From: Candidatus Sumerlaeota bacterium
GTDB lineage: Bacteria; Sumerlaeota; Sumerlaeia; JAFGJS01
Assembly (NCBI GenBank): GCA_016928995.1
Contig: JAFGJS010000031.1
Span: forward strand, 1 to 10,369
Reading direction: 5' to 3'
DNA length: 10,369 nucleotides
The notes under the pieces are model-generated. The model saw nothing but the letters and a program-made list of their open reading frames with translations, did no database searches and was not told the origin of the DNA. A program made the position numbers and the translations under genes. This document shows positions 5,092 to 8,052 of this stretch, one piece after another (the first letter of the stretch is position 1; the number at the start of each line of letters is the position of its first letter).

Positions 5092-5113
5092 TCATTGGAC
5101 GGTGATCCGAATC

Positions 5114-6796
5114 ATGACTAACATCATGAATCCCAACGAAGAACACATCGGACCGTACGTTGTGATTTCGCGCCTCTCCGCCAATCAAACGGGCGAAATG
5201 TACCAAGCTCTCGATCCGCAGCTGAACCGCTATGTCGTAATCAAGGTTCTTTCCGAAGAGCTCTCGCGACAGCCCGACATCGGACCGCGATTAAAAGAAT
5301 ATTTCCGCCTGATTAACGCGCTGCAACATGAATGCTTCGTGCGCATTCTGGAAATCTCGCCGGGACAGCTGGGCGTGGAGAAACCCTATATCGTCCAGGA
5401 ATACGTGGACGGTCCAACGCTGCGGGAACTGACGCAGGGAGCGGCGCATCCACCACTCACTTCATTGATCGAATTCATGATCCAGGCCTGCCAGGGATTG
5501 GAATACGCCACACAGCATAACCTGGTGCATGGCAACATCTGTCCGGCGCACATGATGATCGCGCCGAACGGACTGATCAAAATGGTCGATTTCGGCTTCA
5601 GCCAACTGCTGACTCAAGCGTTGCCCACAGCCGCTCGTAAAGACGTGGAATTAAGCATATATTCACCGCCGGAATTCAGACACGGCCATCTTGATCTTCG
5701 CAGCGATATTTACTCCCTGGGGATCACGTTCCTTCATCTCTGCACAGGACGCGAACCGACCGGGACGATGATGGACTTCCAGCAACATACGGCCCCTCTG
5801 CCGGATAAATTGACACGCACCCTGCAGCGCATGACCCAGCGCGATCCGGATCAGCGCTATCAGAGCTATCAACGGCTGCTGGCGGAACTGGACGCCGCGC
5901 GGCTGCTGGCAATGTCGCGGGAAGGATTCTATCAATTCGACGATCCGACAAGCCGGCCGCCGTCTGCGCCTTCCGTAGACACGGCGCCGGATGTTGGGGC
6001 GGAGGATTTTCGCGCACCATCGACATCGAGCAACATCGACAACGCCTTGCCGCAGGATTCGCCATACTACGCCCAGCAAAAATCCAGTCCAGCGATTCCT
6101 TCCATGAACGAATCCTTTGCGGAAATTGCGCTGGACATGGATAATCGGCCGGATCTTGGCTCGAGCATCCAAACGGAATACAATCCAGGCTATGTCAACG
6201 CGAACAATCCGCTATACTCCGCGGCGGAGGAAGCCGGCTATAATCCGCAACGGGCTCTGCAAGTCAATATGGACGATGTGGCGACGGCGTCGCGCAGGGG
6301 CACCCTTGCCGGAACGCTGTTCATTTTCGGCTTCGCATTCCTTTTCGTCGCCATGATGATCATGTTCGTGCTGAACAGACCCAATCCGGAAGAGGGCGGA
6401 GAGGCGAAAAAGGGACTGGTGAACCGTTTTCTGACGGAAACCGTGCCGGGATGGTTCGCCGGAGAAAAATCCGAGCTGGAAGTGGAAATGGAATTGCGCG
6501 CCATCACGCGCGAGCGCATGCAGTACGTCTTTACCGCAGTAGAGAATTATTTTATCAAATATAAAAAGTATCCCAACTCGCTTCAGGATTTGATCGAAAA
6601 AGAAAACATCGCGGAAGACCAAATCAAGGATGGGTGGGGCACGCTGCTCGACTACAGACGTTCGGATCGTCGTATTATTTCCGCTGGGGCCGACAAATCC
6701 TACAATACTACCGACGACTTTGTGCTTCTCAACGGCCGTTTCACTGCGGAGCCTCCGAAACTGGACATGGAGATCGTGCGCGAGGAAAACATGTGA
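5114..6796 (+). CDS. Membrane-anchored pseudokinase with GspG-like C-terminal domain
   Basis: A 560-residue protein. The N-terminal half (about residues 10-265) has the bacterial Hanks-type Ser/Thr kinase fold: the beta-3 Lys44 in VVIKVL, the DFG motif at 159-161, an APE-like SPPE, and the RSDIYSLG helix with Asp198. It should not catalyse phosphotransfer. The HRDLKPxN loop reads HGNICPAH, so the catalytic Asp is Asn141 and the Lys and Asn of that loop are also replaced. The glycine-rich loop has become LSANQTGEMY. A Pro/Ser-rich linker of about 120 residues leads to one transmembrane helix (about 398-420), so the kinase domain is cytoplasmic and the tail lies outside. The tail (about 461-550) resembles the C-terminal part of the type II pseudopilin GspG: a long helix, 'KYPNSLQDLI', D-G-W-G, 'IISAGADKSYNTTDDF'. 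I preferred ATG 5114 because GGTGA lies 8 bases upstream. A GTG at 5102 or ATG at 5126 are alternatives. It is probably a binding or signalling scaffold; ligand and partner are unknown. Confidence 0.88.
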   Translation: MTNIMNPNEEHIGPYVVISRLSANQTGEMYQALDPQLNRYVVIKVLSEELSRQPDIGPRLKEYFRLINALQHECFVRILEISPGQLGVEKPYIVQEYVDGPTLRELTQGAAHPPLTSLIEFMIQACQGLEYATQHNLVHGNICPAHMMIAPNGLIKMVDFGFSQLLTQALPTAARKDVELSIYSPPEFRHGHLDLRSDIYSLGITFLHLCTGREPTGTMMDFQQHTAPLPDKLTRTLQRMTQRDPDQRYQSYQRLLAELDAARLLAMSREGFYQFDDPTSRPPSAPSVDTAPDVGAEDFRAPSTSSNIDNALPQDSPYYAQQKSSPAIPSMNESFAEIALDMDNRPDLGSSIQTEYNPGYVNANNPLYSAAEEAGYNPQRALQVNMDDVATASRRGTLAGTLFIFGFAFLFVAMMIMFVLNRPNPEEGGEAKKGLVNRFLTETVPGWFAGEKSELEVEMELRAITRERMQYVFTAVENYFIKYKKYPNSLQDLIEKENIAEDQIKDGWGTLLDYRRSDRRIISAGADKSYNTTDDFVLLNGRFTAEPPKLDMEIVREENM

Positions 6797-6944
6797 CGCT
6801 CCGCGCCAGCCATCGCATTTTTCGCGCATGAAGGCCAATCGCCCCTTGCAAACCATGAATTCCGCCCGCAAAATCAAGCTTGCCTCGCGACAATAGCGTC
6901 CCGGGGCGGATTCATTATGACTGTATAAATGGAGCGCAAAACAA

Positions 6945-8052
6945 ATGACTCTGCAGGAAACCTCGCAAAAACTATCGGAGCTCAAGGCTCGCATCGCCCA
7001 AGCCGGAGACTATCTTTAACTTGGCCGCCAAGGAAGCTGAGTTGAAGGAACTCGAGGAAAAAACCGCCGGCGACGGATTCTGGAACGATATGGAAGAGGC
7101 GCAACAGACGCTGAAAAAAATCAAACAGCTTAAAGCCGTGACCGAGCCTTGGCGCAAATGCGAACATCACGCCGAAGACACCCTGGCCATGATTGAATTG
7201 CTCGACGAAGAGGGCGAGGATTCCGAAATGCTGGCCGAGGCGGCGGCCGGAGCTGAGCAGCTCGACCGGCAGATCGAAAAACTGGAAACGGCCAGCCTGC
7301 TTTCCGGCGAAACCGACCTGAGCAATTGCTATCTCTATATCAACGCCGGCGCGGGCGGAACCGAGTCCTGCGACTGGGCCAGCATGCTGATGCGCATGTA
7401 CGTCCGCTTCGGCGAACGCAGCGGCTACGCCGTGAAGGCGCTCGACATCCAACCCGGAGACGAGGCCGGCATCAAATCGTGCCAGCTCTTCTTCGAAGGC
7501 GATTTCGCCTACGGCTACCTGAAGGCCGAAAGCGGCGTGCACCGGTTGGTGCGCATCTCCCCTTTCGACGCCAACAAACGGCGGCATACTTCCTTCGCCT
7601 CGGTGCATGTCACGCCCGAGCTCGACGACACGATCGAAGTGGAAATCGACGAGAAGGACTTGCGCATCGACTATTACCGCGCCAGCGGCGCGGGCGGCCA
7701 GCATGTCAACAAGACCAGTTCCGCCGTGCGTATCACGCATCACCCCAGCGGCGTCGTCGTGGCGTGCCAGAATGAGCGCTCGCAACATCAGAACAAGGAC
7801 GTGGCGTTTCGCATCCTGCGCTCGCGGCTCTATGCTCTGGAAGTGCAAAAACGCCGCGAGGCCGCGGAAGCCCGCGAGCCGGAAAAGAAAGAGATCGGCT
7901 GGGGCAGCCAGATCCGCTCATACGTATTCCAGCCATACCAGATGGTGAAGGACGTGCGCACCAGCTGCCAGACCGGCAACCTGCAGGCTGTGATGGACGG
8001 CGACATCGACGAATTCATCGAAAGCTACCTGCGCTGGTCCGTGGAACGATAA
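6945..8052 (+). CDS. prfB: Peptide chain release factor 2 (RF2), read by +1 programmed frameshift
   Basis: RF2 ends translation at UGA and UAA codons by hydrolysing peptidyl-tRNA on the ribosome. A 24-codon leader frame begins at ATG 6945 (GGAG at 6931-6934, 10 bases upstream). It reads to CTT 7014-7016 and meets TAA 7017-7019. Skipping one base at that point continues as Asn and then LAAKEAELKEL, giving 368 residues. Both halves fit RF2: the leader ends GDYL like the E. coli leader end GYL, and the frame-shifted part carries the codon-reading SPF tripeptide at 205-207 and the catalytic GGQ at 250-252. These are the same positions as in E. coli RF2. SPF distinguishes RF2 from RF1 (PxT). Residue 246 is Ala, as in most RF2s, not the Thr of E. 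coli K-12. The flanking genes are unrelated, 148 bases upstream and 232 downstream, so it is probably a single-gene unit. What is odd is the UAA at the shift site and the weak internal SD. Confidence 0.95.
7005..7020 (+). promoter_or_regulatory. prfB: Programmed +1 frameshift site in prfB (CTT TAA C)
   Basis: The site reads GGAG (7005-7008), then ACTAT, then CTT TAA C (7014-7020). In E. coli the element is an AGGGGG internal SD, three bases, then CTT TGA C. The slippery CUUU run is conserved, so tRNA-Leu on CUU can slip to UUU and the next codon is AAC. Differences from E. coli: the stop is UAA instead of UGA, the SD core is only GGAG, and it lies about one base further upstream when aligned to the anti-SD. 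Known biology: low RF2 leaves the ribosome paused at the stop and favours the shift, so RF2 controls its own level. Confidence 0.88.

Follow-up and report, generated by a model that had tools for sequence, protein, structure and literature searches.

A UAA stop codon at the prfB +1 frameshift site of a Sumerlaeota bacterium and its recurrence in other bacteria

Our analysis indicates that the prfB gene on contig JAFGJS010000031.1 of the Candidatus Sumerlaeota bacterium genome GCA_016928995.1 very probably has an ordinary programmed +1 frameshift, in which one transition has changed the in-frame UGA to UAA. UAA prfB sites are rare and have been documented before; they have arisen many times. 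What is new here is modest, namely the retention of UAA across a whole family of the class Sumerlaeia (f13); this family and a group in Chlorobi are small counter-examples to the description of UAA as not fixed in clades. The window analyzed is one entire contig (C74), 10.4 kb long, of a 4.55 Mb draft assembly (161 contigs, 92% complete).

The prfB gene and the translation machinery of its host

The shift site, on the forward strand, reads ...GCC GGA GAC TAT CTT TAA C TTG GCC.... The zero-frame leader (6946-7019) is an open reading frame of 24 codons which starts with the ATG at 6946, is translated as MTLQETSQKLSELKARIAQAGDYL and ends with TAA; it codes for the N-terminal residues of RF2, and a possible Shine-Dalgarno (SD) sequence, GGAG, is located 10 nt 5' of its ATG (6932-6935). 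Both the leader start, 22 to 26 codons 5' of the shift, and the leader residues (...YL) recur across Sumerlaeia, where the position of the start and the reading frame are conserved. An internal SD-like GGAG (7005-7008) precedes the slippery CTTT (7014-7017), which consists of the P-site CTT (7014-7016) and the first T of the stop, and which is invariant at the frameshift sites of Sumerlaeia. The CUUU thus directly adjoins the in-frame stop (CTTTAA, 7014-7019), and the stop (7017-7019) is followed by C (7020), forming TAAC (7017-7020) where TGAC is usual. The body of RF2 (7018-8052) lies in the +1 frame relative to the short leader; it begins with AAC (Asn), opens with NLAAKEAELKELEEK and runs to a TAA stop ending at 8052, with SPF and GGQ motifs. 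It matched the profile TIGR00020 with 508.9 bits (cut-off, 370), and the PCRF and RF-1 domains were found with Pfam. The sequence, the reading frames and the profile match confirmed the +1 frameshift site at CTT TAA C that had been proposed in an earlier note on this DNA. UAA is decoded by RF2, and the stop at the shift site is therefore readable by the SPF-type RF2 that the gene encodes. The TAA at 7017-7019 places the site outside the canonical form with its RF2-specific UGA, and within a wider kind that admits UAA (1.4% of known sites). Elsewhere in the window, 5102-6796 encodes a Ser/Thr protein kinase that includes a transmembrane segment; its C-terminal part resembles a pseudopilin domain of type II secretion (GspG-like), and only the kinase was detected with Pfam.

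There is no ATG, GTG or TTG in the +1 frame from the upstream stop (24 codons up) to the shift site, so full-length RF2 requires a change of frame unless initiation occurs at the TTG at 7021, which would remove the first 24 residues of RF2. The genes of the release factor family in GCA_016928995.1 are one RF2, one RF1 (contig C70) and one for a 132-aa RF-like protein (contig C31). Since RF2 is single, the second intact in-frame prfB, which the earlier note had named as an observation that would speak against its reading, is absent from the genome.

The translation machinery of GCA_016928995.1 is ordinary. The prfA gene for RF1 is full length and has the PxT motif (PET, in RVPETEAQGRIHTS) and the GGQ motif (GPGGQ), so that the loss or a defect of RF1 is not supported as an explanation of the UAA codon; this bears on the integrity of the gene, not on the cellular level of RF1, with respect to the low RF1 activity suggested previously. 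The 3' end of its 16S rRNA is GGATCACCTCCTTTCT, indicating that the anti-SD sequence (CACCTCCTTT) is intact; an altered anti-SD was looked for in the genome's own 16S and was not found. No RF3 above the cut-off was found in the 92% complete assembly. Stop codon usage is 48% TAA, 40% TGA and 12% TAG (182 long ORFs in a sample of 334 kb).

The duplex of the internal SD with the anti-SD has an energy of -6.6 kcal/mol, and its paired stretch ends 4 nt before CTT, against the usual gap of 3 nt, so the GGAG was rightly described as one base further away. Its description as weak holds in comparison with E. coli, whereas within Sumerlaeia this SD is mid-range, and with the 16S tail intact a peculiarly weak SD is not supported: the energies at 31 sites of the class range from -1.5 to -12.3 kcal/mol, and 15 of them are weaker. 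Five Sumerlaeia sites (L005, L012, L013, L014 and L031, from G006, G003, G016, G002 and G018, respectively) keep CTTTGAC with a nearly absent internal SD, for example, CCTGGCAATATCTTTGAC at -1.5 kcal/mol. These sites contrast with the published prfB motif, which treats the SD as hyper-conserved. RF3 (prfC) is present in 12 of the 39 Sumerlaeia genomes, mostly in families f8 and f13, and the median energy of the internal SD is -10.7 kcal/mol in genomes with RF3 versus -6.4 kcal/mol in those without it (P = 0.014, uncorrected for kinship). In E. coli, prfB shifting increases on the loss of RF3 (PMC5373646).

UAA and UGA at prfB sites in Sumerlaeia and other lineages

The comparison set consisted of all 38 other Sumerlaeia genomes in our collection, all of which fall outside the genus and the family (f1) of the host. 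Searching the class with a loose pattern yielded mostly chance matches, and the counts were restricted to prfB places. Among the 32 readable shift sites, 27 have CTTTGA and five have CTTTAA, the latter from GCA_016928995.1 and from four members of family f13 (G015, G025, G028 and G037). The relatives, among which family f1 is not represented, are thus not uniformly TGA; uniform TGA among relatives had been put forward as a pattern that would tell against a genuine UAA. In family f13, UAA is present in four of the four genomes with prfB in the assembly, which belong to three genera, and all sites of its sister family f8 have UGA. In the three genomes of family f2, the frameshift has been lost and prfB is simply in frame, suggesting that a decayed site would look different from the CTTTAAC site. 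RF2 is not in the assembly for four Sumerlaeia genomes.

In the RF2 tree, f13 forms a supported clade as the sister of f8, and GCA_016928995.1 is placed apart from f13, its position within the class not being settled by the tree. A grouping of GCA_016928995.1 with f8 and f13 was weak and is absent from the final tree, and the two UAA groups stay separate. On the best RF2 tree and on every bootstrap tree that was counted, at least two changes between UGA and UAA are required in Sumerlaeia. In samples of the genomes, the usage of TAA/TGA/TAG as stop codons is 20/57/23 in the UAA family f13 and 18/57/26 in the UGA sister f8, and RF3 is found in both; stop codon usage was rejected as the cause of UAA because the two families are alike.

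We also scanned 84,980 species genomes with the strict pattern GRN TAY CTTTAAC N57 TTYTGGRA. The 46 places obtained comprise 24 full RF2 genes with a leader, two truncated RF2 genes and 20 that are not RF2, so that 26 RF2 genes with CTTTAAC from about ten lineages were confirmed; the lineages with matches were Chlorobi, Sumerlaeota, Lentisphaerae, Caldisericota, Spirochaetes, Ignavibacteriae, WOR-3, Zixibacteria, Cytophagales/Schleiferiaceae and UBP8. Around one match in Chlorobi (L100), the 17 nearest matching genomes have 11 UAA and six UGA sites, and the other 47 matching genomes of its class all have UGA. Close relatives in this group switch between the two codons, making it a good place to study such flips. 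In one family of Lentisphaerae, two of five matching genomes have UAA. UAA thus turns up repeatedly, and it can extend across a genus or a family. Among 8,164 frameshifting prfB genes, Prince et al. (2025, PMC12421855) found 98.6% TGA, 1.4% TAA (in several phyla) and no TAG, and described TAA as not broadly fixed in clades. The UAA codon, regarded as unusual in the earlier note, is therefore uncommon (five of 32 in the class, 1.4% of published sites) but not unprecedented.

Proposed mechanism and alternative explanations

For shifting in the cell, for its rate and for the effect of RF1 at this prfB, we infer the following. Ribosomes would translate the 24 codons of the leader and come to a pause at UAA-C, where tRNA-Leu would slip from CUU to UUU with the assistance of the moderate internal SD, and RF2 would then be finished in the +1 frame. 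Because RF2 still recognises UAA, more RF2 should mean more termination, and high RF2 would still favour termination at UAA, so that the self-limitation of RF2 would be kept. RF1 should also be able to terminate at the leader stop, an expectation that is right by standard release factor specificity, and the site would then answer to RF1 and RF2 together, not to RF2 alone; by the same specificity, the feedback would be less specific to RF2 and the shift rate probably lower. If UAA is decoded mainly by RF2 in most bacteria, as Prince et al. argue (PMC12421855), the loop would stay nearly intact.

An assembly or sequencing error, with G as the true base and a canonical CTTTGAC, was considered since the site is on a 10.4 kb contig of a 161-contig draft and our collection has no close relative that confirms the base. 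However, four other Sumerlaeia genomes and 22 genomes of other groups likewise have UAA at this position, and errors at exactly that base should be far rarer than the natural 1.4% (PMC12421855); with this recurrence in relatives and other lineages, an error is extremely unlikely. Against the frameshift itself, the internal SD is weak next to that of E. coli and lies one base further from CTT. In addition, the TTG at 7021, directly after TAAC and 1 nt 3' of the stop, might in principle serve as the start codon of a truncated RF2, perhaps by re-initiation after termination at UAA, and would leave the frameshift vestigial. Most relatives, including the UAA family f13 (AACTAC), do not have TTG there, the product would be without the first helix of RF2, and the leader is still open with its start at the conserved position; we consider such a start highly improbable.

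The change to UAA may also have been adaptive, in that it would let RF2 output sense the total of RF1 and RF2 and would be selected where UAA/UAG usage or the level of RF1 is special. The retention of UAA throughout f13 is in line with such selection, as are the UAA-rich, UAG-poor usage and the lack of RF3 above the cut-off in GCA_016928995.1. In contrast, f13 and its UGA sister f8 share stop codon usage and both have RF3, so that no genomic feature tracks the change, and the mixture of UAA and UGA in the Chlorobi group resembles drift between near-equivalent states. An adaptive rewiring therefore appears unlikely, and it is just as unlikely that some Sumerlaeia and a Chlorobi group have a stable UAA set-point that senses pooled RF1 and RF2, as a distinct feedback logic kept at the family level. 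Since stop usage does not separate the UAA from the UGA families, we prefer near-neutral drift, with both stops workable, to adaptive rewiring.

Comparison with known prfB sites

The prfB site is a textbook case of a stop codon that senses its own release factor, and prfB sites with UAA are natural tests of whether this sensing must be specific to RF2. The family-wide retention of UAA suggests that sensing by RF2 only is not strictly required, and f13 and f8 provide matched UAA and UGA sister families for measuring it. The site of GCA_016928995.1 shares with the canonical E. coli prfB (AGGGGGUAUCUUUGAC) the leader open reading frame, the internal SD-like purines, CUUU, a stop followed by C and the +1 continuation into RF2; it differs in that its stop is UAA instead of UGA, its SD is only GGAG and is one base further from CUU, and its first residue in the new frame is Asn instead of Asp. 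It is like the UAA-type sites of Prince et al. (2025, PMC12421855), in which CTTTAA replaces CTTTGA and which are scattered over phyla, although, unlike their description of such sites as not broadly fixed, UAA is common to all readable members of f13.
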